A stretch of 64,000 nucleotides of DNA from Paenibacillus ferrarius (GTDB lineage: Bacteria; Bacillota; Bacilli; Paenibacillales; NBRC-103111), in the NCBI RefSeq assembly GCF_002027705.1, contig NZ_MBTG01000003.1:186001-250000 (forward strand). Reading direction: 5' to 3'. Of this stretch, positions 1 through 17,935 are shown piece after piece. Each line of letters starts with the position of its first letter. The stretch's first letter is position 1. The notes under the pieces were generated by a model. The model saw only the letters and a list, made by a program, of their open reading frames with translations, did not search any database and had not been told where the DNA came from. The position numbers were made by a program, and so were the translations under genes.

Positions 1-1
1 C

Positions 2-1153: not shown

Positions 1154-1161
1154 TCACGAAG

Positions 1162-1193
1162 AAAAAGGGCGCAGATCACGGGTGCCCTTTTTC
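1162..1193 (+). terminator. Rho-independent terminator after spoVAF
   Basis: AAAAAGGGC pairs with GCCCTTTTT around a short loop and ends in a T-run, nine bases after the spoVAF stop codon. Confidence 0.85.
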
Positions 1194-1316
1194 TTATTGC
1201 GAGGATAAGTGTATTGTCAAATGAGCTTTCCCTATGGTACTTTTATTAGTAATGCGTATTGCCGCTTAAGCGGATAATGGGTAAGAAATGGTTCCGGAAG
1301 AAGGGGAAATCAAGCT

Positions 1317-2648
1317 ATGTATTTACACGGTACTAGTAAAGTAAACGATCAAGGCCACCTCGAAATCGGCGGTGTCGATGCCACACAGCTAGTTGCGGAA
1401 TACGGCACGCCTTTATATGTATTTGATGAAGCGTTAGTACGTCAACGTTGTCGTGAGTTTGTTGACGCCTTCCGCGCGTCCGGCTTGAAATTTCAAGTGG
1501 CTTATGCCAGCAAAGCATTTTGTGTGATGGCGATGTGCCGTATCGTGGAAGAAGAAGGAATGTCCTTGGACGTAGTTTCCGATGGAGAGCTGTACACGGC
1601 GCTGCAGGCGGGTTTTCCTGCTGAACGCATTCATTTCCATGGCAATAACAAAACTGTGGATGAGATCGAAATGGCCATAGATGCACAAATCGGCTGTTTT
1701 GTTGTAGATAATTTTATTGAGCTTCAATTATTGAACGCCATTGCCGGAGATAAACGCCAGAAAGTAAAAGTTTTGCTGCGTATTACACCAGGGGTAGAAG
1801 CGCATACGCATGAGTTCATCTCTACAGGCCAAACCGATTCCAAATTCGGCTTTGATTTGGGGAATGGGTCCGCTATGCGTGCGATCAAAGAAGCGGCTTC
1901 CTTAAGCAATTTGGACGTTCTCGGTGTGCATTCCCATATCGGATCACAAATTTTTGAAGTAGAAGGATTCCGTATTGCTGCTGAGAAAGTTGCTGGCTTT
2001 GCCGTTCAAGTGCGCAAAGAAACAGGAATCATCTTCCCAGTCATTAATCTTGGCGGCGGCTTTGGTATTCGCTATGTGGAAGGCCATACACCGCTTCCGG
2101 TTGCTGTCTATGTGGAAGCCATTACAGAAGCTATCAAAGAGAACTTCGGCAACAACGATTACCCGCTGCCTGAGATTTGGGTTGAGCCAGGTCGCAGCAT
2201 CGTCGGCGACGCAGGTACGACCTTGTACACAGTAGGGACTACGAAAGATATTCCCGGCGTACGCAAATATGTAGCTGTAGATGGCGGTATGACAGATAAT
2301 CCTCGTCCTGCGCTGTATGAGGCCGAATATGAAGCTATGTTGGCTAACCGCGCTACGGAGCAATCCGAAGAGGTAGTTTCGATCGCTGGCAAATGCTGTG
2401 AAAGCGGCGATATGCTGATCTGGGACCTGAACCTGCCTAAAGTGTCAGTTGGCGACATACTGGCTGTTTCCTGCACAGGTGCTTATAACTATGCAATGGC
2501 GAGCAACTATAATCGTATTCGTCGTCCTGGCGTTGTTTTTGTAAAAGACGGTCAAAGCGACCTTGTCGTGAAACGGGAATCGTTTGACAACATCATCGGC
2601 AACGACCTCATTCCGGCAAGAATGAAACAAGTCAGCACAACGAGATAA
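1317..2648 (+). CDS. lysA: Diaminopimelate decarboxylase
   Basis: Last step of lysine synthesis: PLP-dependent decarboxylation of meso-diaminopimelate to L-lysine in the cytoplasm. The 443-residue length is typical. The fold III PLP lysine is K66 in VAYASKAFC, followed by the phosphate-binding GGGFG region and the CESGD active-site motif near the C-terminus that is contributed across the dimer. AAGGGG precedes the ATG at good spacing. It stands alone after the spoVAF terminator, as in Bacillus. No lysine riboswitch is visible in the 160-base upstream gap, and no clear terminator follows. Confidence 0.97.
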   Translation: MYLHGTSKVNDQGHLEIGGVDATQLVAEYGTPLYVFDEALVRQRCREFVDAFRASGLKFQVAYASKAFCVMAMCRIVEEEGMSLDVVSDGELYTALQAGFPAERIHFHGNNKTVDEIEMAIDAQIGCFVVDNFIELQLLNAIAGDKRQKVKVLLRITPGVEAHTHEFISTGQTDSKFGFDLGNGSAMRAIKEAASLSNLDVLGVHSHIGSQIFEVEGFRIAAEKVAGFAVQVRKETGIIFPVINLGGGFGIRYVEGHTPLPVAVYVEAITEAIKENFGNNDYPLPEIWVEPGRSIVGDAGTTLYTVGTTKDIPGVRKYVAVDGGMTDNPRPALYEAEYEAMLANRATEQSEEVVSIAGKCCESGDMLIWDLNLPKVSVGDILAVSCTGAYNYAMASNYNRIRRPGVVFVKDGQSDLVVKRESFDNIIGNDLIPARMKQVSTTR

Positions 2649-2715
2649 TGGAGCGCTCGCAGGTGAGAGCTGTCAGGAATGCTGATTGAAACGGTATGTA
2701 GTTATGGAGTAAATA

Positions 2716-2898
2716 CCTGCGATTATGCATCTTTTTCGTTCCTTAAATAACCGATATCATGAAATTCCTGCATTTCTGCATGTTTATTCTGCCTTTTCCC
2801 ACTTCGTTGAGAGAAAAGATGAGAAAGCCTGCACAATTGCAGGTTTTTCACTTTTTCACGATTTATGATGAAAATTCCTGTACTTTCGCAGGCTTTCA
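2716..2898. repeat. Four-palindrome array, family M, copy 1
   Basis: Four imperfect 16-bp palindromes of the type CCTGCRnnnnTGCAGG begin at 2716, 2767, 2828 and 2877 (steps 51, 61 and 49 bp). The third, CCTGCACAATTGCAGG, has perfect 6-bp arms. Modules 2 and 4 are preceded by AAATTCCTG and most are followed by T-rich stretches. The same array recurs at 13101-13283. Reading-frame register is not kept between modules, so the short ORFs through it look non-coding. Bases 2899-3076 hold nothing I recognise. Confidence 0.8.
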
Positions 2899-3076
2899 GT
2901 GCCGTGGAGCTATTCACCTTGTTGAGCGAATCTCATGGAAACCCGGCTAAAATAGAAAGCATTTCCCCCTGCCGCATAACCTTAGAAGGATAAGTGTTAA
3001 TGCTTGCTAAAAGGACAACTCCTTCGCCGTCTGCAAGGAAAAAGGGGACAAGTTTAGCGGCAGTCTCGCGTGTCAT

Positions 3077-3105
3077 TTGTGAAAAGTAAAGTTTCATAGT
3101 AGAAT
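3077..3105 (+). promoter_or_regulatory. Probable sigma-A promoter of ppiB
   Basis: TTGTGA (3077-3082), a 17-base spacer and TAGAAT (3100-3105) lie about 30 bases before the ppiB start codon. Confidence 0.55.
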
Positions 3106-3137
3106 AAGATATTATTGTCAAAAGGAGTGGACCACAA

Positions 3138-3569
3138 ATGGCCAAACAAGCAAATATTAAACTAGCAGGTGGCGGCGAGGTTGTTATCGATCTTTTCGAA
3201 AACGACGCTCCCAATACCGTTGCCAACTTTGAAAAATTAGCAAACTCCGGTTTCTACAACGGTCTTGTTTTTCATCGCGTCATTCCAGGATTCGTAGCAC
3301 AAGGCGGTTGTCCAACCGGCACAGGAACTGGTGGCCCAGGCTACCAAATCAACTGTGAAATCAACCCGAACAAACATGAGCGCGGCTCCTTGGCTATGGC
3401 TCATGCAGGCAGAAACACAGGTGGAAGCCAATTCTACATCGCTTACCAACCGCAACCACATCTGGATGGGCAGCATACTGTTTTCGGTAAAGTGTCCAAA
3501 GGCATGGAGTTGGTCGATGCTTTCAAAGGCAAAGACGTGATGGAAAAAGTAGAAGTTGTAGAAGTATAA
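3138..3569 (+). CDS. ppiB: Peptidyl-prolyl cis-trans isomerase, cyclophilin type
   Basis: Cytoplasmic cyclophilin that speeds cis-trans isomerisation of Xaa-Pro bonds during protein folding. At 143 residues it is a single minimal cyclophilin domain without signal peptide. The signature [13 protein letters not shown] carries the catalytic arginine, followed by the glycine-rich [10 protein letters not shown] stretch and a GSQFYI segment. AAAGGAGTGG lies at normal distance before the ATG. It is monocistronic, with its own promoter candidate and a strong terminator. In Bacillus the same gene sits between lysA and the rib operon. Confidence 0.96.
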
Positions 3570-3590
3570 TTTTCGAATGAAGTAGAATCA

Positions 3591-3628
3591 AAGAATCTGT
3601 TGAGGTAAACTCGACAGATTCTTTTTTT
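3591..3628 (+). terminator. Rho-independent terminator after ppiB
   Basis: AAGAATCTGT and ACAGATTCTT form a stem with an inner GAG/CTC pairing, followed by seven T. Confidence 0.92.
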
Positions 3629-3751
3629 ATGCAAAATTTGACAGAAGTATGATGAAAACTAACACTCTCCTGAAACCTTATTGCGTATTTTACTAACAAT
3701 TCTCTAGGAAAATAGAAAAGAGAGCTAAATACCAAAGTGGAGGAAAGCGAT

Positions 3752-5308
3752 ATGGTGCATAGAGGAGATTTTAAACTTAGGAACCTAGTCAATGCTATTG
3801 TGCTTATATCTGTCCTTACAACTTTGGGTGCAAGTATCTTGATCAGTTATTATAATGAGAAAAAATCGTTGACACGGACGACCTTTGAATTAAACAAAGC
3901 ATATGCGGATAAAATCGCGGACACGGTGGACGGCTTGTTCTCGAATTTAAAACAAGGACTCGCCGTAACAGGCGAATATTTGCAAAAGGATCTGAAGCGG
4001 CCGGACATGTTCGAGCAATTGGAGCTGTTCCGCCTAAATCATACGAGCCTGAATACGATTTCGCTAGTCGATCGTTCTGGGATTATCACGAATACATCTC
4101 CTTATAATAGCGATGTGATTGGGAAAAAGATCATGCCGGATGTTGAGAAGCTTTTTATTCAGCAGCGTCCTATTATTTCAGAACCGTTTTATACCAATGC
4201 CAATTATTTGTCTGTTGCCATTATCCAGCCTTTATTTAATGAATATGGGGAGTTTATTGGTGCACTTGGCGGAACAATAAGATTGCATGAAACGAATATG
4301 TTTAATGTGGTATTAGGGGATAAGCTTAAGGGGGAAGACGGTTCCTATTTCTTTGTTGTGAGCTCCGAAGGAAATTTGATTTATCATCCTGATCCAGCCC
4401 GGATCGGAGATCAAGTTGGCGAGAATCCAGCGGTAAGCGAGCTGCTGCAAGGTAGAAGCGGTATGCGGAGGCTTATTAATACCAAAGGTGTGGATATGCT
4501 TGCCAGCTATACGTACATGAAGGAATCGAGATGGGGGATTGTGGCTCAAACGCCGATGAAAGTCGTATTAGCGGATGCCCATCACCTGGTTAGGCAAGTT
4601 CTGCTGTATGTCATTCCAATTGTGCTTGTGTTCATGTTCGCGATCTATATACTCATCAGGAAAATGTCAGAGCCTCTCTTGAGGTTGGCTAATTATGCTG
4701 CGAAGCTCTCGACGAATAATCTGGAGCAGGAGGAGCCGCCGCGTATTCACTCATGGATGTATGAAGCGAACAAGCTTCACAGGGCGTTCAGTCTGGCGGT
4801 TACTCATTTGCGCACGGAATTTGATGACCTTTCACATATTTCCCAAACGGATCCCTTAACGGGAGTCTATAATCGCCGTACGATGGAATTGTTTATGCAA
4901 AACTTGATCTCCCAGCAAAATCCTTTTGCCATTCTGGTTCTCGACATTGATCATTTCAAAAAGGTCAACGATACATACGGTCATGTTGTTGGAGATCAGG
5001 TCCTGCAATTACTGGCTAAGAGCTTGCAAAACTCGTTAGGCAAAAGCGGAGCCATTTTCCGCTATGGCGGAGAAGAATTTGTCATCTTGCTGCCCAATAC
5101 ATCGCTGAAAACGGCAATGAGAAGAGCGGAGACGGCGCGGAGAGCGATGGAAGAAATGAGGAGCCCCAGCGGGAAACCTATTACAGTGTCCATAGGGGTG
5201 GCTTCATTTCCTGATACAACGAAAGACGTGGACGAGCTTATTGCTTATGCCGATAAAGCGTTGTATCGGGCGAAAAGTATGGGGAGAAATCGCGTGGAAT
5301 CGGCGTAA
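3752..5308 (+). CDS. Membrane-bound diguanylate cyclase with extracytoplasmic Cache-type sensor
   Basis: Makes cyclic di-GMP from two GTP in response to an external signal. Start chosen at ATG 3752 because GTGGAGGAAAG (3737-3747) is the ribosome site; this gives 518 residues. Order: membrane segment about 11-33, a Cache-like extracytoplasmic domain about 35-270, second membrane segment about 280-302, HAMP-like linker, then a GGDEF domain from about 360. The active-site loop reads RYGGEEF, an active form. No RxxD inhibitory site stands just upstream of GGEEF, so product inhibition through that site is not expected. The ligand is unknown. A PilZ c-di-GMP receptor is encoded at 36.1 kb. Monocistronic. 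Confidence 0.92.
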   Translation: MVHRGDFKLRNLVNAIVLISVLTTLGASILISYYNEKKSLTRTTFELNKAYADKIADTVDGLFSNLKQGLAVTGEYLQKDLKRPDMFEQLELFRLNHTSLNTISLVDRSGIITNTSPYNSDVIGKKIMPDVEKLFIQQRPIISEPFYTNANYLSVAIIQPLFNEYGEFIGALGGTIRLHETNMFNVVLGDKLKGEDGSYFFVVSSEGNLIYHPDPARIGDQVGENPAVSELLQGRSGMRRLINTKGVDMLASYTYMKESRWGIVAQTPMKVVLADAHHLVRQVLLYVIPIVLVFMFAIYILIRKMSEPLLRLANYAAKLSTNNLEQEEPPRIHSWMYEANKLHRAFSLAVTHLRTEFDDLSHISQTDPLTGVYNRRTMELFMQNLISQQNPFAILVLDIDHFKKVNDTYGHVVGDQVLQLLAKSLQNSLGKSGAIFRYGGEEFVILLPNTSLKTAMRRAETARRAMEEMRSPSGKPITVSIGVASFPDTTKDVDELIAYADKALYRAKSMGRNRVESA

Positions 5309-5336
5309 GGCATATACATATTTGGGAATCATGCAA

Positions 5337-5357
5337 AAAAAGCCCTTGCTTTTTCGA
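5337..5357 (+). terminator. Weak terminator-like hairpin after the diguanylate cyclase gene
   Basis: AAAAAGC and GCTTTTT form a 7-bp, AU-rich stem around CCTT. Only the stem's own T-run follows, so efficiency is uncertain. Confidence 0.4.
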
Positions 5358-5436
5358 GGTGTGAGTGATAAATTTTTCATTACCAAAGTAATTTTTAGCT
5401 AGTTCCTAGTTGTAAGTTACTTTCATATGTATGCAA

Positions 5437-5613
5437 AACCTTCGGGGCGTGGTGAAATTCCACACCGGCGGTGATTCGAACTCATGTACCTAGTACTTGT
5501 TTTCGATAAGTCCGTGACCCGTTTTGAAGCTAGCGGTACCTGACATACAGCTTCGCTACGGCTGATCCGGTGCAATTCCGGAACCGACAGTATAGTCTGG
5601 ATGGGAGAAGGAA
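5437..5613 (+). promoter_or_regulatory. FMN riboswitch (RFN element)
   Basis: The conserved RFN blocks appear in order: CTTCGGGGCGTGGTGAAATT, CACCGGCGGTGA, AAGTCCGTGACCCG, GATCCGGTGCAATTCCGG, then CCGACAGTATAGTCTGGATG with a closing GAGAAGG. In this class FMN binding to the leader RNA favours termination or hides the ribosome site. Here an intrinsic terminator follows at 5780-5811, before ribD, so control by transcription termination of the whole rib operon is expected. Confidence 0.97.
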
Positions 5614-5779
5614 TACGCGAATTTTAACATTCGCTGTGCGTACTTGTTCATTTTTTCACGTAAACAAAAATTCGGCAAGTCTGTCTTTTGAAGCAGAATC
5701 GTCGATCTTGTTTGGTGTGATCAAAAATGCGGCAAGTACGTATAGGCAGAAGCTTATTCGTGTTATCTCGACAATCTCT

Positions 5780-5811
5780 GGCCCCTTTCCGATATACGGA
5801 GGGGTCTTTTT
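5780..5811 (+). terminator. FMN-riboswitch expression-platform terminator
   Basis: A CCCC...CCG stem pairs with CGG...GGGG and ends in TCTTTTT, between the RFN aptamer and ribD. It is the likely regulated terminator of the rib operon. Confidence 0.85.
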
Positions 5812-5853
5812 GCATTCATAATCAAGCTGGATGGGTGGAAGGCGGTAAACGAC

Positions 5854-6963
5854 GTGCATGTACTGAATGACGAAGCTTACATGAAACTTGCCTTGCAAAT
5901 GGCAGCAGGCGCACTAGGCCAAACGGGGATCAATCCGGTTGTAGGCTGCGTCCTGGTGAAGGATGGACGCATTGTAGGCATGGGTGCGCATTTGAAACGC
6001 GGCCATGGGCATGCGGAAGTTCTCGCCTTGCAGATGGCAGGCGAGGAAGCTAGAGGAAGTACGGCTTATGTTACTTTGGAGCCGTGCAGCCATTTCGGCA
6101 AGACGCCGCCATGCAGCGACCGCCTTATTGAGGCGGGTGTGACACGCGTCGTTGTTGCGGCCACAGACCCGAACCCGCTGGTGGCGGGAACGGGCATCGC
6201 CAAGCTGCAAGCCCAAGGCATCGAGGTCAGCGCAGGGTTGCTGGCCGATGAGTCCTCAGCGATGAATGAGGCCTTCAACAAATACATCGTCACGCGGATG
6301 CCATTTGTGACGATGAAAACGGCGAGCACGCTCGATGGCCGCATCGCCTCAAAGACCGGCGACAGTAAATGGATTACATCGCCGGCGTCGCGTGCTTATG
6401 TGCACACCCTGCGCCATCGGCATCAGGGGATCATGGTCGGCGTAGACACCGTCATCGCCGACGACCCGATGCTGAGCGCGCGCGGCGACGTCCCGGCTGT
6501 GCAGCCGGTACGGATCATCGCGGACTCGCAGCTGCGAGTCCCGCTCGGCGCCCGCGTGCTCACCGAGCAGGATCGTCAGCCGACGATCCTGCTCGCCAGC
6601 GCACAGGCGCCAGCAGAGCGGCGTGCCGCGCTGGAAGCGCGCGGCATCACGATCCTCACCTGCGGGGATGGCCCGCAGGTGGACCTGACGCTCGCCATGC
6701 GCCAGCTGGGCGAGCGGGAGATCGGCTCCATCCTCCTGGAGGGTGGAGGCAAATTGAACGGCGCTATGCTGGAGCAGTGCCTGCTAGACAAGCTGGTGCT
6801 GATGTTTGCGCCGAAACTGATCGGCGGAGGCCATGCAGCACCTGTGAACATCAACTTCGAAGGCTTCGCGAAGATGGATGAAGCAATTACGCTCGACCGG
6901 GTGAAGGTCGAGCAGCTCGGACCGGATATTTGCCTAACAGGCTATCCGATTTATCCGAACTAA
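5854..6963 (+). CDS. ribD: Bifunctional riboflavin deaminase/reductase
   Basis: Catalyses deamination and then reduction of the pyrimidine intermediate in riboflavin synthesis. The N-terminal deaminase domain has the zinc motif HAE and PCSHFGKTPPC; the C-terminal reductase domain begins near SLDGRIA-like and GDSKWIT segments. Length is 369 residues, normal for the family. GTG at 5854 is used because GGTGGAAGGCGG stands upstream; ATG 5881 is a possible alternative. First gene of ribD-ribE-ribBA-ribH under the FMN riboswitch. The part coding for the reductase domain (about 6380-6760) is far richer in GC than its surroundings. Confidence 0.96.
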   Translation: MHVLNDEAYMKLALQMAAGALGQTGINPVVGCVLVKDGRIVGMGAHLKRGHGHAEVLALQMAGEEARGSTAYVTLEPCSHFGKTPPCSDRLIEAGVTRVVVAATDPNPLVAGTGIAKLQAQGIEVSAGLLADESSAMNEAFNKYIVTRMPFVTMKTASTLDGRIASKTGDSKWITSPASRAYVHTLRHRHQGIMVGVDTVIADDPMLSARGDVPAVQPVRIIADSQLRVPLGARVLTEQDRQPTILLASAQAPAERRAALEARGITILTCGDGPQVDLTLAMRQLGEREIGSILLEGGGKLNGAMLEQCLLDKLVLMFAPKLIGGGHAAPVNINFEGFAKMDEAITLDRVKVEQLGPDICLTGYPIYPN

Positions 6964-6979
6964 CGAATGGAGGGCTGTC

Positions 6980-7651
6980 ATGTTTACCGGCATTATTGAA
7001 GAAATCGGCCACATGCGCCGCATTCATAGCCAAGGTCAAGCGATGGTGCTAACGATTGGCGCCAAGAAAGTACTGTCAGATGTCCATCTGGGAGATAGTA
7101 TTTCAGTGAACGGTGTTTGTCTGACTGTCATTGCTTTCGATAGCGAGTCTTTCTCTGTGGATGTTATGCCCGAAACCTATCGCAAGACGAACCTTCGCAA
7201 GCTGCAAACCGGCACACGCGTGAATTTGGAGCGTGCGATGGCGGCGAATGGACGTTTCGGCGGACACATCGTTCAAGGACATGTGGATGCTACGGCAACG
7301 ATCCTTTCCCGCATACCGGAAGAAAATGCCGTTGTTTACCGGTTCGAGCCGGAGAATACGCATATTTTTCGTTACATCATTGCCGGCGGCTCCATCACAA
7401 TTGATGGCATTAGCCTTACGGTGGTGGACGTCAATGAACGTGAAGTCGCCGTTTCGATTATTCCACATACGCTGGCTCAGACGGTTCTCAATGATAAAAA
7501 AGCTGGAGATACGATCAACATGGAATGTGACGTACTTGGCAAATATATGGAGCGACTGCTTAAGTTTGGTCCATCCGATGCCTCGGACAGCAGCAGTCCT
7601 AAACCAAGCAAGCTGACCGCAAGTTTTCTGGCTGATAACGGATTTATGTAA
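6980..7651 (+). CDS. ribE: Riboflavin synthase alpha subunit
   Basis: Dismutates two 6,7-dimethyl-8-ribityllumazine molecules to riboflavin, the last step of the pathway. The protein begins [10 protein letters not shown], as is diagnostic, and has two homologous lumazine-binding barrels seen in the parallel motifs NGVCLTV and DGISLTV. Length is 223 residues. A GGAGGG site precedes the ATG. It follows ribD by 16 bases and precedes ribBA closely, so co-transcription is expected. Confidence 0.97.
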
Positions 7652-7667
7652 CATAGGAGAGGTGAAT

Positions 7668-8894
7668 ATGACACACATCAAATTCAACAAAATTGAGGAA
7701 GCTCTGCAGGATCTCATTTCAGGCAAAGTCATTATCGTTGTTGACGATGAGGATCGTGAGAACGAAGGCGACTTTATCGCACTCGCGGATAAAACGACGC
7801 CGGAAGTTATCAACTTCATGATTAAAGAAGGACGCGGACTTGTCTGTGCGCCGATTACGGAAGAACGTGCGCTGGAACTGGACCTGCCGCCTATGGTCGC
7901 CAAGAATACGGACTATCATGGAACGGCATTTACCGTTTCGGTAGACCATAGTGAGACGAGTACTGGAATTTCGGCACATGAGCGTTCCCGAACGATTATG
8001 GGCTTGATTGATCCAACAACAAGACCACAGGATTTCCGCAGACCTGGTCATATTTTCCCGCTGATTGCCAAAAAAGGCGGCGTTCTTCGTCGAGCAGGCC
8101 ACACCGAAGCCGCTGTTGATCTAGCGATCTTGTGCGACTCTTATCCGGCAGCTGTCATCTGTGAAGTGATCAAAGAAGATGGTACAATGGCGCGTGTGCC
8201 TGATCTTATGGAGCTTGCAGCCAAGCACGATTTGCGCATTATTACGATTCAGGATTTGATTCAATATCGCAATCAGCAAGAGAAACTAGTTGAGCGCGAA
8301 GTTGAAATTAAGCTGCCGACGGATTTCGGAGTGTTCAAAGCAATTGCCTACACGAATCAGCTGGACAATAAAGAGCATGTTGCTCTTGTCAAAGGGACGA
8401 TTGATCCTTCCAAACCAACTTTAGTGCGTGTACATTCCGAGTGCTTGACTGGAGATGTGTTCCATTCTCATCGCTGTGATTGCGGCCCTCAACTTGATGC
8501 GGCATTAAAACAGATTGATGAAGAGGGCAGTGGTGTATTATTATATATGCGACAGGAAGGTCGCGGTATCGGCTTAATCAACAAATTGAAAGCTTATGCG
8601 CTGCAGGAGCAGGGATTGGATACCGTAGAGGCGAATATTAAACTTGGGTTTGCTGCTGATCTTCGGGATTATGGGATTGGTGCGCAAATTCTGAAAGACC
8701 TTGGCATTACTCAACTTCGTCTATTGACGAATAATCCGCGCAAAATTAAAGGTCTTGAAGGCTATGGCCTTGAGGTCGTTGAACGTGTTCCGATTCAGAT
8801 GGATAGCAAAGCGGACAATCTCAGTTATTTGCAAACGAAAAAGAACAAGCTTGGCCACATGCTGAGTTTTCATGATTCGGGCAGCGGCATTTAA
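7668..8894 (+). CDS. ribBA: 3,4-dihydroxy-2-butanone-4-phosphate synthase / GTP cyclohydrolase II
   Basis: Supplies both precursors of the riboflavin pathway. The N-terminal half holds the DHBP synthase acidic motif [11 protein letters not shown]; the C-terminal half holds the GTP cyclohydrolase II zinc cysteines in [16 protein letters not shown] and the RQEGRGIGL loop. AGGAGAGG at 7655-7662 fits ATG 7668; the GTG at 7662 lies inside that ribosome site. The resulting 408 residues are typical of the fused enzyme in Bacilli. Confidence 0.97.
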
Positions 8895-8953
8895 GCATAC
8901 AGGTCCAATTTACGCATACTACAACGTTTTCTAAAGAGAGGGAGACTATACGC

Positions 8954-9424
8954 ATGGCTAACATTTTTGAAGGACATTTAATTTCACAAAACTTAAAATA
9001 TGGTATCGTCGTAGGTCGTTTCAATGAATTCATTACTTCCAAATTGCTTGGAGGCGCTCAAGATGCTCTGAAGCGTCACGGTGTGAATGAAGAGGAAATT
9101 GATATCGCTTGGGTACCTGGTGCGTTCGAACTTCCGTTAATCGCTCAAAAAATGGCGGAGAGCGGCAAATACGACGCTGTTATTACCCTAGGTGCTGTCA
9201 TTCGGGGGTCAACGCCTCACTTCGATTATGTGTGCAGTGAAGTAGCTAAAGGTGTTGCGGCTATTAACCTGAAAACGGGCGTTCCAACGATTTTCGGTGT
9301 GTTGACGACAGATTCCATTGAGCAAGCCGTTGAGCGCGCAGGAACAAAAGCCGGAAATAAAGGCTGGGAAGCCGCAGTAACAGCTATTGAAATGGCGAAT
9401 TTAACGAAACAATTTACTTCCTAA
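8954..9424 (+). CDS. ribH: 6,7-dimethyl-8-ribityllumazine synthase
   Basis: Condenses the pyrimidine and the four-carbon precursor to lumazine; the family assembles as 60-mer capsids that house riboflavin synthase. The motifs GAFELP and [14 protein letters not shown], with the catalytic histidine region, are intact in 156 residues. GAGAGGGAG lies before the ATG. It is the last biosynthetic gene of the rib operon, and its stop codon overlaps the start of the next gene (TAATG). Confidence 0.97.
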
Positions 9425-10065
9425 TGCTGTCTTATTATCATTTGGAAACACTGCTTCCCCGACTGCTTGCCTTTCTAGTCGCTATGACGCTGCATGATGC
9501 TGCGCACGCGGGAGCAGCTTGGCTGCTCGGAGATCGAACAGCTCGGGAAAGCAAACGATTATCGCTTAACCCCTTGGTCCATTTGGATGCCTTGGGGTTG
9601 GCCATGATTGTTTTTGGGCCGTATGGCTGGTCGAAGAAAATGCCGATTGACGAAGCTAATTTCAAGAAAAGACCCAAACTGTCCAACACACTCGTTTTCC
9701 TGGCGGGTCCTGTTATCAATTTGCTGCTTGCTTTGCTCTTCTGGTGGCTCTATTTCTTCCTTCCTTCCATTTTAGGAGGAACAGCGGAGTCGATAACCGT
9801 GGAACAATGGCGAGTCTATTTGCAATATGGCGTCATCGTTAACATTATGCTTTGTTTCATACATATACTGCCTCTTTATCCGTTGGATGGCTGGTACATC
9901 CTCAAAGGATGGGTGCCAAGCCAAAGGAAAGTCTGGTTTGACAGAAACCAGCGTTACGCACTTATTTTAGTTGTTTTTCTAATGATTACACCTATGGGAC
10001 AATGGCTGCTGGGGCACGTGTATCCGCTCGCCGCGCAGCTGGTTATGCAATTATTTTCAATTTGA
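9424..10065 (+). CDS. Site-2-protease-like (M50 family) membrane protein with HDAAH motif
   Basis: A 213-residue polytopic membrane protein. The architecture fits the YwhC-like branch of M50 intramembrane metalloproteases: an N-terminal membrane helix with the zinc motif region, then NPLVHLD, and a later helix with LPLYPLDG, matching the second zinc ligand motif. The expected HExxH reads HDAAH (residues 24-28), so the general-base glutamate is aspartate. It may be a reduced-activity, altered or inactive protease. It starts inside the ribH stop codon, which suggests translational coupling, and may serve the following scp genes or stand alone functionally. Confidence 0.75.
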   Translation: MLSYYHLETLLPRLLAFLVAMTLHDAAHAGAAWLLGDRTARESKRLSLNPLVHLDALGLAMIVFGPYGWSKKMPIDEANFKKRPKLSNTLVFLAGPVINLLLALLFWWLYFFLPSILGGTAESITVEQWRVYLQYGVIVNIMLCFIHILPLYPLDGWYILKGWVPSQRKVWFDRNQRYALILVVFLMITPMGQWLLGHVYPLAAQLVMQLFSI

Positions 10066-10080
10066 CAAGGGGGAACAGAA

Positions 10081-10872
10081 ATGAAAGTCACCTATAAGTT
10101 AGAAGCTTTTGAAGGCCCCCTTGATCTATTGCTTCATCTTATCGATAAAAATGAACTTGACATTTATAATATTCCTATCAAAGAAATTACAGATCAGTAT
10201 TTAAGTTATGTGCAAGCCATGCAGGAATTAGAGCTCGAAATCACGAGTGAGTTTCTGGTCATGGCTGCAACACTGCTCTCCATTAAGAGTAAAATGCTGC
10301 TGCCTAAACCGCCTGTAATTGAATTTGATGAGTATTTTGATGATATGGAAGATGAGCTTGATCCACGTTCTGAGCTTGTTGCGAAGCTGATTGAGTATCG
10401 CAAATATAAGTCAATTGCGGATATGCTTAGGGATAAAGAGGTTGAGCGCAGTTTAGTTTATACGCGTGAGCCCGAGGATTTAACGCCTTTCCTGCCCCAT
10501 GTTCAGGAGAATCCCGTGGAAGGGCTGGATGTGGCGGATTTGCTCTTCGCTTTTCAGCGGACTTTGAGAAAGCTGGCTAATCGGAATGTTGTTGCAAGAA
10601 TACGCCGCGATGAGATCTCTGTGAAGGATCGTATTCGTGAGGTCGTTGATTTGCTGAAAATACGAGGCGGCAAATTGCTGTTCTCGAAGCTTTTTGATTA
10701 TGAAATGACGCGGGAAGAAATTGTTGTTACGTTTCTAGCCATTCTAGAATTAATGAAAATGAAAAAAGTCGTTTGTCATCAACACAAGCTGTTCGAAGAC
10801 ATCGTGATCCAAGCCAAAGAGGAGGGTTCTGACATTGACACTCAATTTTCCACAGATGAAATCGATTATTGA
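10081..10872 (+). CDS. scpA: Segregation and condensation protein A (kleisin)
   Basis: Kleisin subunit that bridges the SMC heads and binds ScpB in the condensin complex for chromosome segregation. The N-terminal FEGPLDLLLHLI motif and the acidic middle region are typical, and the 263 residues match the family. AAGGGGGAAC lies before the ATG. It overlaps scpB by 38 bases, as is common for this pair. Confidence 0.97.
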   Translation: MKVTYKLEAFEGPLDLLLHLIDKNELDIYNIPIKEITDQYLSYVQAMQELELEITSEFLVMAATLLSIKSKMLLPKPPVIEFDEYFDDMEDELDPRSELVAKLIEYRKYKSIADMLRDKEVERSLVYTREPEDLTPFLPHVQENPVEGLDVADLLFAFQRTLRKLANRNVVARIRRDEISVKDRIREVVDLLKIRGGKLLFSKLFDYEMTREEIVVTFLAILELMKMKKVVCHQHKLFEDIVIQAKEEGSDIDTQFSTDEIDY

Positions 10873-11458
10873 AGGACTGCTCTTTGCCTCAGGTGACGAG
10901 GGCTTAGATGCGAAGCAGCTGGCAGAGGTGATGGAGCTGGATTTGTATCTGGTTCGTGACCTGCTCAAAGATATGAGAACGGAGTTTAAACGCAAAGGAC
11001 GAGGGATCCAAATTGTTGAAGTAGCCGGAGCTTATCAACTGACAACGTTAGCTGAACACGCTCCCTATTTTGAACGACTCGCCTATACACCGTCGCGATC
11101 TTCGCTCTCCCAAGCTGCTTTAGAAACGTTATCCATTGTTGCCTACAAGCAGCCAATTACGCGAGTTGAGATCGAAGAGATCCGCGGCGTAAAATGTGAT
11201 CGCGCACTGGCGACGCTAACTGGGAAAGATTTAATTACCGAGGTGGGACGGGCTGACGCTGTAGGGAGACCGATTTTATATGGCACTTCTAAGGAATTTC
11301 TTGAATATTTCGGCCTTAGCTCCATTCAGGAGCTCCCTGATTCGACCGGCTTTCAAGGCAATTTTGATCTGGAAGAAGAAACTCGCCTGTTATTTGACCG
11401 GCTAGGCGGAGATCAGAAGCAGCTTACTCTTGAAGATGTGAACGAAGAAGCCGAGTAA
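10835..11458 (+). CDS. scpB: Segregation and condensation protein B
   Basis: Winged-helix partner of ScpA in the SMC condensin complex. The internal SQAALETLSIVAYKQPIT and RGVKCDRAL stretches are family signatures. Start taken at TTG 10835, which lies eight bases after AGGAGGG (10820-10826) inside the end of scpA and gives the N-terminal length seen in Bacillus ScpB. ATG 10856 is the alternative but lacks an equally placed ribosome site. Confidence 0.95.
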   Translation: MTLNFPQMKSIIEGLLFASGDEGLDAKQLAEVMELDLYLVRDLLKDMRTEFKRKGRGIQIVEVAGAYQLTTLAEHAPYFERLAYTPSRSSLSQAALETLSIVAYKQPITRVEIEEIRGVKCDRALATLTGKDLITEVGRADAVGRPILYGTSKEFLEYFGLSSIQELPDSTGFQGNFDLEEETRLLFDRLGGDQKQLTLEDVNEEAE

Positions 11459-11504
11459 GAAGATCATCATCAAATGCATTTCATTCCCATTCTAAGAACA
11501 TACT

Positions 11505-11548
11505 AACTCCACTGGCGAGAAGACTTTTTCTTGCATTGGAGTTTTTTT
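11505..11548 (+). terminator. Terminator after scpB
   Basis: AACTCCA pairs with TGGAGTT across an internal arm and ends in seven T, just before the ribosome site of the DUF2953 gene. Confidence 0.75.
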
Positions 11549-11567
11549 GCTGAGGAGGCATATCACT

Positions 11568-12269
11568 TTGTTGTGGATCGGACTTGCTGTACTCATTGTC
11601 ATTATTGCGATTATCGTTGTTCTGATTAGCTTTATTAGAGGAGAGTTCTACTTCTCTCGCGTTCGGGACAACGATACGCTTTCGGTGGAAGTGCGTGCAT
11701 TGTTTGGGATTGTACGTTATCGCTATGTGATTCCCATTATTCAATTCAAAGGATTTGCTCAGGGAATCATGATTAAATCAGAAGTAGTGAACAAAGCAAG
11801 TACTAAGTTGAAAGATGAAACCAAGGATCATATTACCAAAGATAAAGTAATCGCCTACTACAACGAAGTGAAAGTTCTTCTGGAAAATACGCTGCAATTG
11901 TATAGCTGGATGAAACAAACGCTTGCTCGAGTGGAATGTACGGAGCTGAAATGGATTACGCGAGTAGGAGTCGGCGATGCGCCAGAAACAGCCATAACAA
12001 CAGGGGCCATTTGGGGGATTAAATCAACCCTGCTTGGCTTTACCATTCGGTATGTGAAACTGATGACGAAGCCGCGGGTGGATGTCATTCCGCAATATAA
12101 TCAAAAACAGTTCTCGACTGAATTCCGCCTTGCCGGTCGGATTCGTGTATGGTTTGCCTTATTTGCCGGCGTACGACTGCTAGTTCGCGCGGCAAAAGTT
12201 AAAGGCGGTCTTCGTACTTGGATTCAACTAGCGCTGAAGACCAGATCTAGGGTTAAAACGGCATCTTGA
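11568..12269 (+). CDS. DUF2953-family membrane-anchored protein
   Basis: One N-terminal hydrophobic segment is followed by a basic soluble part with a helical middle. The pattern fits DUF2953 proteins, widespread in spore formers and often found next to gerW (ytfJ), as here. GAGGAGG at 11552-11558 points to TTG 11568 (233 residues) rather than upstream starts. No catalytic motif is visible. Its pairing with gerW suggests a sporulation role, which is inference. Confidence 0.75.
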   Translation: MLWIGLAVLIVIIAIIVVLISFIRGEFYFSRVRDNDTLSVEVRALFGIVRYRYVIPIIQFKGFAQGIMIKSEVVNKASTKLKDETKDHITKDKVIAYYNEVKVLLENTLQLYSWMKQTLARVECTELKWITRVGVGDAPETAITTGAIWGIKSTLLGFTIRYVKLMTKPRVDVIPQYNQKQFSTEFRLAGRIRVWFALFAGVRLLVRAAKVKGGLRTWIQLALKTRSRVKTAS

Positions 12270-12385
12270 TGTGTACATAACGATATTCCACTAAGGGCAT
12301 TCTAAAAAAGAACCAATATTGGTCTTTGATGCTTGCGTTTCCGATGTCAGTTTACTGGCTAAAATCGCTAAGGAGGAATACGATT

Positions 12386-12886
12386 ATGTCCGAACATCCA
12401 ATTCAAGGCCTCATGAAAGTCGCCATGGAAAACATTAAAGAGATGGTTGACGTGAACACGATTGTCGGTGACCCGGTCGAGACGCCGGACGGCAGTGTCA
12501 TCATGCCGATATCGAAAGTAGGATTCGGTTTTGCTGCCGGAGGCAGTGAGTTCATGACCGATTCTGAAATCGAAATCGAAGGCGGCTCGATGAACAAAAG
12601 CGATGCCCTGAATGCGAAAGTTTCGCTTCCTTTCGGAGGCGGCAGCGGCGGCGGGGTATCCATTACGCCAATTGCTTTCCTCGTTGTAGGGAAAAATGGG
12701 GTAAAGGTTGTGCCTCTTGACAACCAAACGCATATTCTCGAGCGTCTAATTGATTCTGCGCCGCAAGTTGTGGACAGAATTCAAAGCATGATTAAAGGCA
12801 TGAGTTCCAAAGCCCCGGGCGGCGCAGTGGGCGCCAACGGAAGCAACAATGTAACGAACATTGAGAATCAAAATTTCATTGTGTAA
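12386..12886 (+). CDS. gerW: GerW (YtfJ) sporulation protein
   Basis: A 166-residue protein with the family pattern PIQGLMKVAMENIKEM, a GDPVETPDG turn, a glycine-rich GFGFAAGG segment and a second GGGSGGG loop. In Bacillus GerW is needed for normal spore germination. Start set at ATG 12386 after AAGGAGG; the longer upstream frame has no ribosome site. The glycine and asparagine rich tail is variable in the family. A strong terminator follows. Confidence 0.92.
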   Translation: MSEHPIQGLMKVAMENIKEMVDVNTIVGDPVETPDGSVIMPISKVGFGFAAGGSEFMTDSEIEIEGGSMNKSDALNAKVSLPFGGGSGGGVSITPIAFLVVGKNGVKVVPLDNQTHILERLIDSAPQVVDRIQSMIKGMSSKAPGGAVGANGSNNVTNIENQNFIV

Positions 12887-12904
12887 CAGATCGGCCTTCG
12901 TTGC

Positions 12905-12931
12905 AGCTGTCCTTTGTGGACAGCTTTTTTT
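12905..12931 (+). terminator. Rho-independent terminator after gerW
   Basis: AGCTGTCC and GGACAGCT form a perfect 8-bp stem with loop TTTGT, followed by a T-run. Confidence 0.93.
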
Positions 12932-13100
12932 GTATTTTTTAAACTGGCCGTTCTGCGTATGATCTTCTTTTATGCGTATGACTATAGCTGTCTGGATCTA
13001 TTTAGCTGTTACGGGTTCTGATAATTTCTTGATGAGCTTCTGAACTTTCTACTTTCTACTTTCTCTGACTCTAGCTCTAGCTCGAGTTGCTTTCTCTAAA

Positions 13101-13283
13101 CCTGCAATTATGCATCTTTTTTGCTCTTGGAATAGCCGCAACGAGTAAATTCCTGCGTTTGTGCAGGTTTTTGAGGCTTATTGTGGATGAGCGGCTTAAA
13201 AAGATAAAAATGCCTGCACAATTGCAGGCATTTCCTCTTTTTAAGCGAATTCGCCCGGAAATTCCTGTATTTTCGCAGGCTTT
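13101..13283. repeat. Four-palindrome array, family M, copy 2
   Basis: Modules of the type CCTGCRnnnnTGCAGG begin at 13101, 13152, 13213 and 13264 (steps 51, 61 and 51 bp). Each matches its counterpart in copy 1 at 2716-2898: module 1 CCTGCAATTATGCATC, module 2 AAATTCCTGCGTTTGTGCAG, module 3 CCTGCACAATTGCAGG and module 4 AAATTCCTGTATTTTCGCAG. The spacer sequences have diverged more than the modules. Confidence 0.85.
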
Positions 13284-13299
13284 TACTTTGGGGTGAACT

Positions 13300-13362
13300 G
13301 ATCTGAACTGAACTATCTGATCTGAACTGAACTATCTGATCTGAACTGAACTATCTGATCTG
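13300..13362. repeat. 19-bp tandem repeat, 3.3 copies
   Basis: The unit GATCTGAACTGAACTATCT is repeated exactly three times (13300-13318, 13319-13337, 13338-13356) and a fourth copy breaks off after six bases. It looks like a recent slippage expansion. Confidence 0.97.
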
Positions 13363-13480
13363 GAAGCCCCTTTCATCCCACGTGGAATTATAAAGTGATC
13401 AACCCTATCATCCGATGCTTACATGCTAAATTTGGCTTATGGGACAGCCTCATAATTCTGGATAAAGATGAGGTTTGACA

Positions 13481-13510
13481 GCCGACGTGTGACCGAGCAC
13501 CGCACGCCGG
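13481..13510. repeat. GC-rich 30-mer repeat, copy A
   Basis: The 30-mer beginning GCCGACGTGTGACCGAGCAC and ending in CGCACGCCGG recurs at 13692-13721 with one visible difference (A to G). It is GC-rich in an AT-rich surrounding. Confidence 0.9.
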
Positions 13511-13691
13511 GAGGCGCACGCAGTGCAAAGATATATTCCTCCCATGGACAAAAGTATGGGTTTACACGCTAAAGGACCGTCAGGATGTTTTTCCTGACGG
13601 TTATTCTTACTTACGGTCAGGAGAAGACCGAGAGGTTACACCCCTTTCTAATGTGCGCAAATGAATGGAAAGCAGGGGAACCCCCTCTTTT

Positions 13692-13721
13692 GCCGACGTG
13701 TGACCGAGCACCGCGCGCCGG
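13692..13721. repeat. GC-rich 30-mer repeat, copy B
   Basis: Direct repeat of copy A, 211 bp downstream in the same orientation, ending CGCGCGCCGG. The flanks of the two copies are unrelated, so the unit itself is short. Confidence 0.9.
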
Positions 13722-13747
13722 TTGAGTAGGGATGAAGTGAAGGCTGA

Positions 13748-13940
13748 TTTCATTGGATTAATTCCATTGCAAGCTAGTTTGGAAAGCCTGAAGTATCGGT
13801 TTCATTGGAAAAACTCCAATGGATAATCCGACAAGCAGGCATCTTTGAGATTGAATGGAATTTTCATTGGATTATTTCCAGTGAAAGCTTGCATTCACCC
13901 CTTGGAAGGCTGGTTTCATTGTACAAATTCCAATGAGAAG
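13748..13940. repeat. Four-palindrome array, family N
   Basis: Four 19-bp palindromes of the type CATTGGAnnnnnTCCAATG, each preceded by TTT, begin at 13748, 13800, 13862 and 13914 (steps 52, 62 and 52 bp). Module 2 has perfect 7-bp arms; the others differ by one mismatch. Its sequence is unrelated to family M but the spacing is almost the same. Confidence 0.85.
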
Positions 13941-14022
13941 ATAACTACCTGCATCCGCAACGTATTAGAATGAAATTTCGCCCCATACAACCCGTTCTTT
14001 CAACAAAGGAAGACAAGTCTTG

Positions 14023-14051
14023 GACATATCCCCAATCTGCAAGCATATACT
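14023..14051 (+). promoter_or_regulatory. Candidate sigma-E promoter of dacB-spmA-spmB
   Basis: GACATATC, 13 bases, then CATATACT resembles the sigma-E consensus (GKCATATT, CATACAHT) and lies about 57 bases before dacB. In Bacillus dacB is transcribed by mother-cell sigma-E. The spacing equals that of the spoIVA candidate. Confidence 0.55.
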
Positions 14052-14107
14052 TGTACAAAGTTTTGTGTTGGTGGTGGGTACAAGTTCTTTGGTCTAGGGG
14101 GAAAACC

Positions 14108-15301
14108 ATGAAGAAAAAAGTCCGGTTCATCTTATTGTGCAGCACACTGGTTGGTTTGCTGCTCGCTCCACTGGCACAAGTGGAAGCAGCACCGCCTGGC
14201 ATCCATACGAATGCGGTTGGCGCTTCCTTGATTGATGTGGAGTCGGGGCGTATCCTCTATAGTCAAAAAGGGGACACGCCCATGCGAATTGCTAGTCTAA
14301 CGAAAATTATGACGGCCATTATTGCCATTGAACAGGGGAATTTGAACGATAAGGTAAAAGTGAGCAAAAATGCCTTTGGCAAGGAAGGCTCGTCGATTTA
14401 CTTGAAGCTGGGCGAAGAGATGAGGCTCCATGACATGCTTTATGGTTTGATGCTGCGCTCCGGCAATGATGCAGCAACTGCTATTGCTGAGCATATTGGG
14501 GGCAGCATAGACGGCTTCGTATACCTTATGAATGAGAAAGCAAAGATGCTGGGCATGGATCATTCGCATTTCACAAACCCTTCTGGCTTGGATGAGGGGG
14601 AAGGTCACCGCTCCAGCCCGAACGATATGGCGAAGCTGACGGCTTACGCTTTGAAAAACAGCGTGTTCCAGGATATTGTATCCACGAAGCTGAAGAAAGT
14701 GCCGAATCCGAATGAGGCATGGGATTACTCGTGGCTGAACAAAAACAAAATGCTGAGCCTGTTCGAAGGAGCAGACGGTGTCAAAACCGGTTACACGAAG
14801 CTGGCCAAGCGTTGTCTTGTCTCTTCGGCTACGAAAGATGGGCATCAACTGGCGGTAGTTACGCTGAACGATCCGGATGATTGGGGCGATCATGCACGTT
14901 TGCTGCAATATGGCTTTACGTATTATCCTCTGCAAACCATCGTTAGAAAAGGGGACGCGGTTGAAGGGACAACGGACGTTGTCTCCAGAAATTTTTCTTA
15001 TCCATTGGCTGAAGGTGAAGCGGCATTGGTGAAGCGCAAAGTGACGCTGGCTGATCCAGCAACGACTTCCTATCGGTTAGGCGAACGAGGTACGCTGCAA
15101 ATATCATTGAAAGACGCCATTATTGGGACGATACCGCTTTATGAGAAGACAAGTCCACTGCTGCAATCAGCCAGTCAATCTACCTTCTCCTTCCAACAAG
15201 GAGAAGCTTACAAGGAAACGCTGCTTTCCCACTATGGCTATGTGTTCAGAGTATTAGTCAGGGAATTGTTTATGATTTCTGAATCGGAGTGGGCAGATTA
15301 G
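14108..15301 (+). CDS. dacB: Sporulation D-alanyl-D-alanine carboxypeptidase (PBP5*-like)
   Basis: Removes the terminal D-alanine from peptidoglycan pentapeptides and, in sporulation, sets cortex cross-linking. From ATG 14108 (after TAGGGGG) the protein has 397 residues: a signal peptide ending near VEAA at residue 28, then the serine-acyl-transferase motifs S63-L-T-K66, S118-G-N120 and K226-T-G228, then a C-terminal beta-rich domain and a terminal hydrophobic, probably amphipathic anchor. The upstream extension of the frame lacks a ribosome site. Position before spmA-spmB identifies it as the DacB rather than DacA or DacF type. Confidence 0.93.
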   Translation: MKKKVRFILLCSTLVGLLLAPLAQVEAAPPGIHTNAVGASLIDVESGRILYSQKGDTPMRIASLTKIMTAIIAIEQGNLNDKVKVSKNAFGKEGSSIYLKLGEEMRLHDMLYGLMLRSGNDAATAIAEHIGGSIDGFVYLMNEKAKMLGMDHSHFTNPSGLDEGEGHRSSPNDMAKLTAYALKNSVFQDIVSTKLKKVPNPNEAWDYSWLNKNKMLSLFEGADGVKTGYTKLAKRCLVSSATKDGHQLAVVTLNDPDDWGDHARLLQYGFTYYPLQTIVRKGDAVEGTTDVVSRNFSYPLAEGEAALVKRKVTLADPATTSYRLGERGTLQISLKDAIIGTIPLYEKTSPLLQSASQSTFSFQQGEAYKETLLSHYGYVFRVLVRELFMISESEWAD

Positions 15302-15313
15302 GGGGACATAGCC

Positions 15314-15913
15314 ATGGTGAATTGGATCTGGTTATTTTTTATAGTGGTGGGATTTGCAGTAGCCGCATTAAACGGGAATATTGAGGCCGTTACGCAAGCC
15401 GCATTTGATGGGGCTAAAAGTGGGGTTACGGTTTGCTTTGGATTGATCAGTGTGCTTGTGTTTTGGATGGGGATGATGAGAATAGCGGAGGATGCCGGCA
15501 TTCTAAGCAAAATCGCCAGGCTTCTGCAGCCGGCTATCCGCTTCTTATTCCCGAGTGTTCCGAAAAACCATCCGGCAATCGGTTATATTATGTCGAATAT
15601 GAGCGCCAACATTCTGGGGCTTGGGAATGCTGCTACCCCGATGGGCATTAAAGCTATGCAAGAGCTGCAAAAGCTTAATCCCGACAAAGAAACAGCAAGT
15701 ACAGCGATGTGTACGCTGCTCGCGCTAAACACGTCTAGCGTAACCTTAATTCCGACGACATTAATTGCTATTCGGATGAATTACAATTCAGTCAATCCAG
15801 CGGAAATCGTAGGAACGACGCTGATTGCAACCATCATCTCTACCGCTGCAGCGATTGTTGTAGACCGTTGGTACCGCAGGTCTCGCTCGCCAATTCCTCC
15901 GCTGAAAGGATGA
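15314..15913 (+). CDS. spmA: Spore maturation protein A
   Basis: Polytopic membrane protein of the nucleoside-recognition (Gate) superfamily that, with SpmB, is needed for spore core dehydration and heat resistance. The 199 residues include a conserved GxxGLGNAATPMGIKAM-like segment and several membrane helices. It lies 12 bases after dacB and 6 bases before spmB, in the conserved three-gene operon. Confidence 0.95.
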   Translation: MVNWIWLFFIVVGFAVAALNGNIEAVTQAAFDGAKSGVTVCFGLISVLVFWMGMMRIAEDAGILSKIARLLQPAIRFLFPSVPKNHPAIGYIMSNMSANILGLGNAATPMGIKAMQELQKLNPDKETASTAMCTLLALNTSSVTLIPTTLIAIRMNYNSVNPAEIVGTTLIATIISTAAAIVVDRWYRRSRSPIPPLKG

Positions 15914-15919
15914 TGTCAA

Positions 15920-16453
15920 GTGTATGCCCTTGTTTCTCTCATCTCTGCTTGGGCCATCCCCATTATGATTGTGTTTATTCCTTTATATGCGGCCTACAAA
16001 AAAGTGCCTGTTTACGAATCGTTCGTCGACGGCGCCAAAGAAGGCTTTGATACAGCCATCAAAATCATTCCCCATCTCGTAGGCATGATGGTGGCGATCT
16101 CCGTGTTTCGAGCTTCGGGGGCGATGGATTTACTGCTCGGCTGGATGCATCCTTTGTTTGATCGCCTGGGCGTTCCAACTGAAGTGCTGCCCTTAGCTAT
16201 TCTGCGTCCAATAACGGGAGCGGGCTCTTTAGCCTTTACCACGGATCTCATCGAGCAGTTTGGCCCGGATTCAATGATTGGACGCATAGCTTCAACCGTG
16301 CAGGGGAGCACAGATACGACTCTCTATGTGATAACGGTTTATTTTGGGGCTATTGGAATTCGTAAAGCCAGCTATGCGTTGAAAGTAGGCTTAATCTCGG
16401 ATCTTGTTGGCTTTGTTGCCTCCATTGTTATCTGTTATATGGTATTTGTTTAA
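15920..16453 (+). CDS. spmB: Spore maturation protein B
   Basis: Partner of SpmA; 177 residues, also a Gate-domain membrane protein, with the KVPVYESFVDGAKEG and GAGSLAFTTD segments typical of SpmB. It starts at GTG 15920 after AAAGGA. Last gene of the dacB-spmA-spmB unit. Confidence 0.95.
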   Translation: MYALVSLISAWAIPIMIVFIPLYAAYKKVPVYESFVDGAKEGFDTAIKIIPHLVGMMVAISVFRASGAMDLLLGWMHPLFDRLGVPTEVLPLAILRPITGAGSLAFTTDLIEQFGPDSMIGRIASTVQGSTDTTLYVITVYFGAIGIRKASYALKVGLISDLVGFVASIVICYMVFV

Positions 16454-16533
16454 AAGATGTCGCATAGATTATCCCTCTGCTCTTGAGATTTAGAGGTAAG
16501 TCCGTTATCATTAGCTTGAGGTGAAAGCGGATC

Positions 16534-17280: not shown

Positions 17281-17296
17281 GAATTGGCCTTCTTTT
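17270..17296 (+). terminator. Rho-independent terminator overlapping the rluB stop
   Basis: AAGGCCAAT and ATTGGCCTT form a perfect 9-bp stem with loop AAGA, followed by CTTTT. The 5' arm contains the last rluB codons and the stop codon. Confidence 0.88.
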
Positions 17297-17363
17297 CGTT
17301 ATAATAAAGGTATTACCCAGTTAGGAACTACTAACATTGTCGAAAAAGCGAAGGTGATAAATT

Positions 17364-17900: not shown

Positions 17901-17935
17901 ACCGATTAAACGCTTGAAGTTTTCAGGAGGTCAAC

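Follow-up and report, generated by a model that had tools for sequence, protein, structure and literature searches.

Three arrays of short palindromes in a 64 000 bp stretch of the Paenibacillus ferrarius genome (contig NZ_MBTG01000003.1, positions 186001–250000, here G000:C3:186001-250000 and called the window) belong to dispersed families that differ in their palindromes and have one spacing in common. The palindromes, about 16–19 bp long and usually four to an array, lie alternately about 51 and about 61 bp apart, distances corresponding to 5 and 6 turns of the helix. With a probability of roughly one half, we read them as DNA elements made up of phased dyads on one face of the helix, which would be bound by one or more dimeric proteins that wrap or bridge the DNA. 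Form in DNA is usually read through sequence, whereas these elements preserve their spacing with palindromes that are not alike, and do so many times per genome and across several taxonomic families of one bacterial order. The P. ferrarius assembly (G000) comprises 9.18 Mb in 73 contigs, with an estimated contamination of 7.5 %.

The arrays in the window

The first array, M1, which is on the minus strand according to a profile match, has four CCTGCN6GCAGG-type palindromes at 2716–2731, 2767–2782, 2828–2843 and 2877–2892, with steps of 51/61/49 bp. The second, M2 (13101–13279, minus strand), has palindromes at 13101–13116, 13152–13167, 13213–13228 and 13264–13279 with steps of 51/61/51 bp, and its three spacers (13117–13151, 13168–13212 and 13229–13263, in order) are kept in length among copies, their sequence being free. 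The N array, on the plus strand, consists of CATTGGAN5TCCAATG palindromes at 13751–13769, 13803–13821, 13865–13883 and 13917–13935 with steps of 52/62/52 bp. All three sets of steps are as an earlier note on this DNA had given them, though the first N palindrome begins 3 bp to the right of the start reported there (13751, not 13748). The 49 bp step of M1 is not general, as the orthologous M1 in a close relative (G009) has steps of 51/61/50 bp in a global alignment. Imperfect palindromes are found among M (CCTGC..GCATC, CCTGC..GCATG and CCTGT..GCAGG).

Spacing of the palindromes

When pairs of similar palindromes 22–160 bp apart were collected from 1.26 Mb of the P. ferrarius genome with no spacing assumed, 83 of the 114 pairs were separated by 50–52, 61–63 or 112–115 bp. 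A scan for sets of four palindromes, covering 2.06 Mb (1.26 Mb of the same genome and 0.8 Mb from four relatives), gave 32 arrays with a score of at least 66 at 51/61/51, compared to none at the control spacings 45/55/45 and 57/67/57, one each at 40/50/40 and 46/66/46, and four at 56/56/56. The spacing 61/51/61 accounted for twelve arrays with such a score, which we attribute to tandem runs with alternating steps. Of 43 arrays scoring at least 62, eight had steps outside a narrow range and were left out of the family means given below; four of these eight belong to the 32, most of them look like chance and two are copies of M or N.

Among 70 distinct M elements, each represented on one strand, step 1 was 49–51 bp in 61 of 62, step 2 was 60–62 bp in 62 of 63, and step 3 was 50–51 bp in 62 of 63, the other being 39 bp. 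Consecutive M-like words within 130 bp of one another were 39–40, 49–51 or 60–61 bp apart in 65 of 67 cases, a count in which many elements are present on both strands. These distances fit steps of 4, 5 and 6 turns, and the steps would imply a helical repeat of 10.2–10.3 bp per turn. The earlier note had argued for selection on the spacing from the observation that two unrelated palindromes keep one geometry, and this argument is supported. As possible bases it had named a DNA-binding or looping protein, a recombination or packaging element, and a folded RNA. The spacing does not vary freely, the steps being nearly constant in the 70 M elements, and it is not confined to recent duplicates, as palindromes of unrelated appearance keep it in several genera.

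Families with different palindromes

This spacing is found with at least seven palindromes of unrelated appearance, in P. ferrarius and its relatives. Those in P. ferrarius are M (CCTGCR/YGCAGG), N (CATTGGA/TCCAATG) together with N' (CACTGGA/TCCAGTG), Q (GAGCCTGCC/GGCAGGCTC) and R (GGGAAC/GTTCCC); Q has CCTGC in common with M and may be related to it. Mean steps were 50.9/61.2/50.6 bp for M (12 arrays), 51.3/62.1/52.0 bp for N (8 arrays), 50.8/61.0/50.9 bp for Q (6 arrays), 51.3/61.3/51.0 bp for N' (3 arrays) and 51.5/61.3/51.0 bp for R (2 arrays). A further family, S (TGTTGTA/TACAACA), was seen in two relatives (G028 and G003). Pairs of S palindromes (TGTTGTAn5TACAACA) number 69, spread over 12 of the 30 genomes searched from the genus; P. 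ferrarius is one of the 30 and has none, and no pairs were obtained with a control pattern. Though any distance from 39 to 69 bp was allowed, 46 of the pairs are 51–52 bp and 20 are 61–63 bp apart, with the remaining three at 47, 53 and 54 bp.

A genome from another family of the order (G037) has 12 TGTAGCG/CGCTACA palindromes at 51/62/51/60/51/61/51/60/52/59/51, and one from a third family (G039) has ACGGACA/TGTCCGT-type arrays at 50/61/51. In P. alba, AAGGCTG/CAGCCTT alternates with GGGCTGT/ACAGCCC. Some arrays are long tandem runs in which 51 and 61 bp alternate, with a period of about 112 bp.

The M pair pattern was detected in 25 of 296 genomes, representing 12 of 48 genera of the order, and among the matches listed those that are named come mostly from Paenibacillus and Fontibacillus. 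Outside P. ferrarius and G009, distances counted by hand for the 64 listed of 85 pairs were 49–52 or 60–62 bp in 62, the two exceptions being 53 and 64 bp, and all 32 pairs from other genera conform. In a wider scan of contigs for M words 16–200 bp apart, which covered at least 83 stretches and yielded 80 loci from them, distances of 50–52 bp were found for 74 of 155 pairs and of 61–62 bp for 20; smaller groups were at 42 (7 pairs), 112 (8 pairs), 111 (5 pairs) and 54 bp (4 pairs), among other distances, and some came from unrelated bacteria. The seven pairs with 42 bp steps were set aside; those in Paenibacillus oenotherae (L131:2819-2980) are part of a satellite into which M palindromes have expanded with a period of 42 bp, about four helical turns. 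The 63 bp repeats of G035 and the 54 bp repeats of L166 were judged to be coding from their length being a multiple of three. Scans for strict pairs turned up no convincing example in 200 kb of G024 or in 140 kb of G015, which has five S pairs outside those 140 kb, and none at all in a 10 kb locus of G039 (L300), despite visible CCTGC-type words.

Spacer length and sequence drift

In 30 blastn alignments of window positions 12900–13500 with 29 loci of the P. ferrarius genome, M2-type spacers carried 383 substitutions (0.115 per bp) and 3 gap openings. The left flank had 214 substitutions (0.092 per bp) and 80 gap openings, and the right flank 97 (0.121 per bp) and 25, at an alignment depth of about 29 over the array, 12–22 over the left flank and about 8 over the right. 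The palindromes had 0.026 substitutions per bp. In 12 disjoint pairs taken from a multiple alignment, spacers had 103 substitutions and 2 gaps, compared to 137 and 19 in the left flank (Fisher p=0.002) and 373 and 35 in the right flank (p=0.018). Dispersed copies have few gaps in their spacers for the number of substitutions found there. Five arrays with orthologues in G009, namely three M arrays of L102 (its fourth M array was not covered), one N array of L089 and M1, had 47 substitutions and 3 gaps, with 138 and 25 in their flanks (p=0.10).

Copies, borders and replacement

The exact word CCTGCRN4YGCAGG occurs 418 times in forward orientation in P. ferrarius and 381 times in G009, and its reversed control once in each; for CCTGCRN4TGCAGG the forward count in P. 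ferrarius is 284, and that of the reversed control 0. M1 and M2 are members of one dispersed family of about 183 bp and N of a second, which blastn, with 40 of 45 candidates scored, found in at least 21 places in the genome, the match extending over most of the query in at least 20. Copies of M are in both orientations and have a nearly symmetric sequence, such that blastn aligned some of them in the wrong sense at about 73 % identity. In general, homology among M copies is confined to the array, ending no more than about 10 bp from the outer palindromes. A larger unit of about 515 bp (12940–13453, with its right end near GGGACAGCCTC) is common to a recent subfamily to which M2 belongs, and is seen as long matches at 78–93 % identity. 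Several of its copies reach further left than the one in the window, whereas other M copies have the array alone in common. M2-type copies have recurrent outer borders, at which no clear inverted ends or target duplication were seen by eye. Copies of N in G009 also have surrounding sequence in common with the window (13722–13990, plus strand), the matches starting at 13722–13730 and ending at 13961–14000.

Window positions 1–20000 are 95–97 % identical to G009 except at 2928–3029 and 12931–14003. At 12931–14003, the two flanking genes are the same in both genomes, but M2 and N lie between them in the window and an R-type array (GGGAACTACGTTCCC..., steps of about 52/61/50 bp) in G009. Hence, a given intergenic site can be occupied by different families that have the geometry in common. 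Positions 2928–3029 are 102 bp between M1 and the next gene that are absent from G009.

M arrays are found between convergent genes in 18 of 42 cases, between tandem genes in 23 and between divergent genes in 1, for comparison with 42 convergent, 129 tandem and 41 divergent among intergenic gaps of at least 250 bp. The open reading frames (ORFs) used for this were called by a simple script, and 19 of the 42 M arrays overlap a called ORF that was taken as spurious. The genes beside three tandem arrays are ordinary by the look of their sequences. Among 193 proteins encoded near arrays, 44 blastp matches were listed. A Pfam scan of ten members of the matching groups identified parts of ABC transporters, AraC-type regulators, a dehydrogenase and secreted proteins, with one protein belonging to no family.

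Proposed architecture

Each dyad would be bound by a putative protein dimer and, since all dyads would lie on the same side of the helix, such dimers could join into one body wrapping or bridging about 180 bp. Selection would act on dyad symmetry and phase, leaving the sequence to drift or be replaced, and either each family would have its own DNA-contacting variant or the binder would read shape more than sequence. The elements would spread as short repeats. This mode of spread, the rarity of M between divergent genes and the replacement of one family by another at a single site suggest a general architectural role, such as local nucleoid folding or insulation between genes, rather than control of particular genes. 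More tentatively, the geometry itself, an alternating 5- and 6-turn spacing of arbitrary palindromes, may be what is recognised, so that the class of element would be defined by its spacing and not by its sequence, with unrelated families evolving, replacing one another in each slot and forming one and the same wrapped or bridged nucleoprotein body, a nucleosome- or velcro-like unit of the Paenibacillaceae chromosome. A protein that reads geometry would represent a novel mode of bacterial chromosome organisation or of mobile-repeat recognition, and the spacing rule can be tested directly on the many variants that occur naturally.

A number of observations weigh against phased dyads bound by dimers. 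No binding protein was identified, and several different palindromes per genome are awkward for one protein. The status of the palindromes as unrelated was judged by eye, and the helical phase rests on two step lengths and a few 4-turn deviants. Copies of M2 share ancestry, so the gap counts are not independent, and their flanks are thinly covered and include slippage-prone repeats; the right flank in the test with 12 pairs (0.31 substitutions per bp) is probably partly misaligned. The gap effect among orthologous arrays is in the same direction and weak. In the M array at L102:626-817, palindrome 2 is lengthened in P. ferrarius and the G009 counterpart has lost 55 bp including a palindrome, a loss which indicates that single copies are dispensable. 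Three of the S pairs, all in G025, make up one non-alternating 51 bp tandem. In G045 (L299:15555-16115), palindromes TACGGTA/ATCCCGTA and AACGGGA/ATCCCGTA form a 51 bp tandem with no 61 bp step; this tandem is possibly coding, its period being divisible by three and part of the tandem overlapping an ORF. Finally, the rarity of M between divergent genes can be due to selection against insertion.

Mobile repeats and known classes of element

The arrays could instead be selfish, non-autonomous mobile repeats, their palindromes being the sites of a family of transposases or recombinases with differing sequence preferences and a common synaptic geometry, much as the ends of IS200/IS605 elements combine a common architecture with varying sequence. 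The dispersal of copies in both orientations, their presence, absence and replacement between close relatives and the recent amplification of the unit of about 515 bp around M2 are all consistent with this, and many families with one architecture resemble families of cognate mobile elements. However, no Y1 HUH transposase (PF01797) was found in P. ferrarius in a search that gave control matches in 5 of 14 genomes (other transposase families were not searched for genome-wide), and there was no transposase or recombinase among the ten neighbour proteins scanned with Pfam, the other 183 being unscanned. Plasmid or phage DNA similar to M2, the one array tried, was not found, and the four viral matches to the M pattern have steps of 36, 57, 40 and 36 bp and were read as chance. 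M in general is without constant ends beyond the array, and the suppression of gaps in dispersed copies is unexpected for dead insertions. We consider mobile repeats of this kind a rather doubtful explanation.

Of the known classes, repetitive extragenic palindromic (REP) sequences, the bacterial interspersed mosaic elements (BIMEs) and REPINs built from them and their REP-associated tyrosine transposases (RAYTs) are the nearest in appearance, being likewise dispersed high-copy intergenic palindromes that occur in pairs and clusters and in many sequence families. The spacers of REP dimers are mostly 20–100 bp and vary between families (PMC3733652). The arrays, unlike these, have one spacing across families, no Y1 transposase in the same genome and no enrichment of the characteristic tags, GTAG or CGTC being within 8 bp of 2 of 73 palindromes in M and of none of 32 words in N (4.6 % at random). 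The bcr1-type repeats, which are short, dispersed and mobile in character in the Bacillus cereus group, and miniature inverted-repeat transposable elements (MITEs) are similar in being short, dispersed, mobile-looking elements of related Gram-positives. What sets the arrays apart is a core of four phased palindromes, and neither terminal inverted repeats nor a target duplication could be made out in them. IS200/IS605 ends and integron attC sites also keep a structure while sequence varies, but they act as folded single strands with cognate enzymes, whereas the steps of the arrays match whole turns of double-stranded DNA.

The multi-operator wrapping regulators Lrp/AsnC and NrdR and the gyrase-binding BIME-2 provide examples of several sites on one helix face and of DNA wrapping. 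Their sites are about three turns apart or lack a fixed palindrome, and each regulator has a single binding sequence. The arrays would be like them in having sites on one face, and differ in spacing and in having multiple sequences. The imperfect 16–19 bp palindromes, the spacers related between copies and the alternating spacing speak against a CRISPR array with its identical direct repeats and unique spacers (cas genes were not searched for), and the different palindromes within one genome and across relatives against a chromosome-organising site of the parS or matS type, for which a single conserved binding sequence would be expected across genomes. The open-access papers searched gave no description of these elements, including PMC3733652 and PMC2267715 in the parts available to us; the subscription literature was outside the scope of this search and an earlier description is possible. 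Judged against the families tested and the open-access papers, the arrays would be a DNA scaffold of a kind not yet described.

DNA or RNA

Transcription of the arrays into a folded RNA, with the palindromes as hairpins that have to be a certain distance apart, is an unlikely explanation. Every palindrome folds, and folding energies, computed for both strands of N and one of M2, gave z-scores relative to shuffles of -5.9 (M2, plus), -4.3 (N, plus) and -3.0 (N, minus), but low energies on both strands follow from the sequences being palindromes. Outer complementary arms are present in some palindromes; as outer dyad arms one turn out, they were rejected as a general feature, being found in some M, N and N' palindromes and not in all families. 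For an RNA, G.U would be expected to be favoured on its own strand throughout. In 60 M elements, each in one orientation, stem mismatches were G.T in 71 cases and A.C in 94, mainly G.T in palindromes 1 and 2 and A.C in palindromes 3 and 4, and in N there were 20 of each. Relative to flanking co-directional genes, M was in the same orientation in 9 cases and the opposite in 14. As there is no uniform strand preference in the stem mismatches, double-stranded DNA is favoured over RNA, and the folded RNA that the earlier note had listed as an option is disfavoured by both mismatches and orientation.

No Rfam family matched over the arrays at the gathering score, the best sub-threshold match being STnc430 (28.2 bits compared to the 47 needed, E=0.43). 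A background-corrected G-test for covariation on 76 M rows, in which elements could be present on both strands and the arms hardly vary within M, yielded a subfamily signal only and no helix, and RNAalifold on 23 M rows and 17 N rows found no common structure using all four hairpins. Moreover, a difference of one helical turn between steps has no obvious reason in RNA.

It is very unlikely that the arrays are ordinary repeats, either bidirectional terminators or REP-like 3' hairpins, that were amplified by chance and owe their spacing solely to descent within each family. In favour of this, many hairpins of M are preceded by A-runs and followed by T-runs, and M is often found between convergent genes. 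Against it, N hairpins are preceded by T and followed by A, those of Q and S lack a following T-run, the REP tags are not enriched, and common descent does not account for identical steps in families that are unrelated.

Other features

The M2–N interval is bracketed by a 30 bp direct repeat (13481–13510 and 13692–13721, 97 % identical), the core word of which had no further occurrence in 1.19 Mb of the P. ferrarius genome. Simple tandem repeats (GATCTGAACTGAACTATCT) that differ between copies lie beside M2 at 13290–13360. Elsewhere in the genome, no arrays were called in C1:1-341405, and within this segment about 160 kb (G000:C1:40001-200000) has a G+C content of 0.32–0.37, compared to mostly 0.43–0.47 around it, and is possibly a large AT-rich insert or a contaminant. 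The window also includes an FMN riboswitch (5434–5616) and, on the minus strand, a T-box leader (25288–25518).

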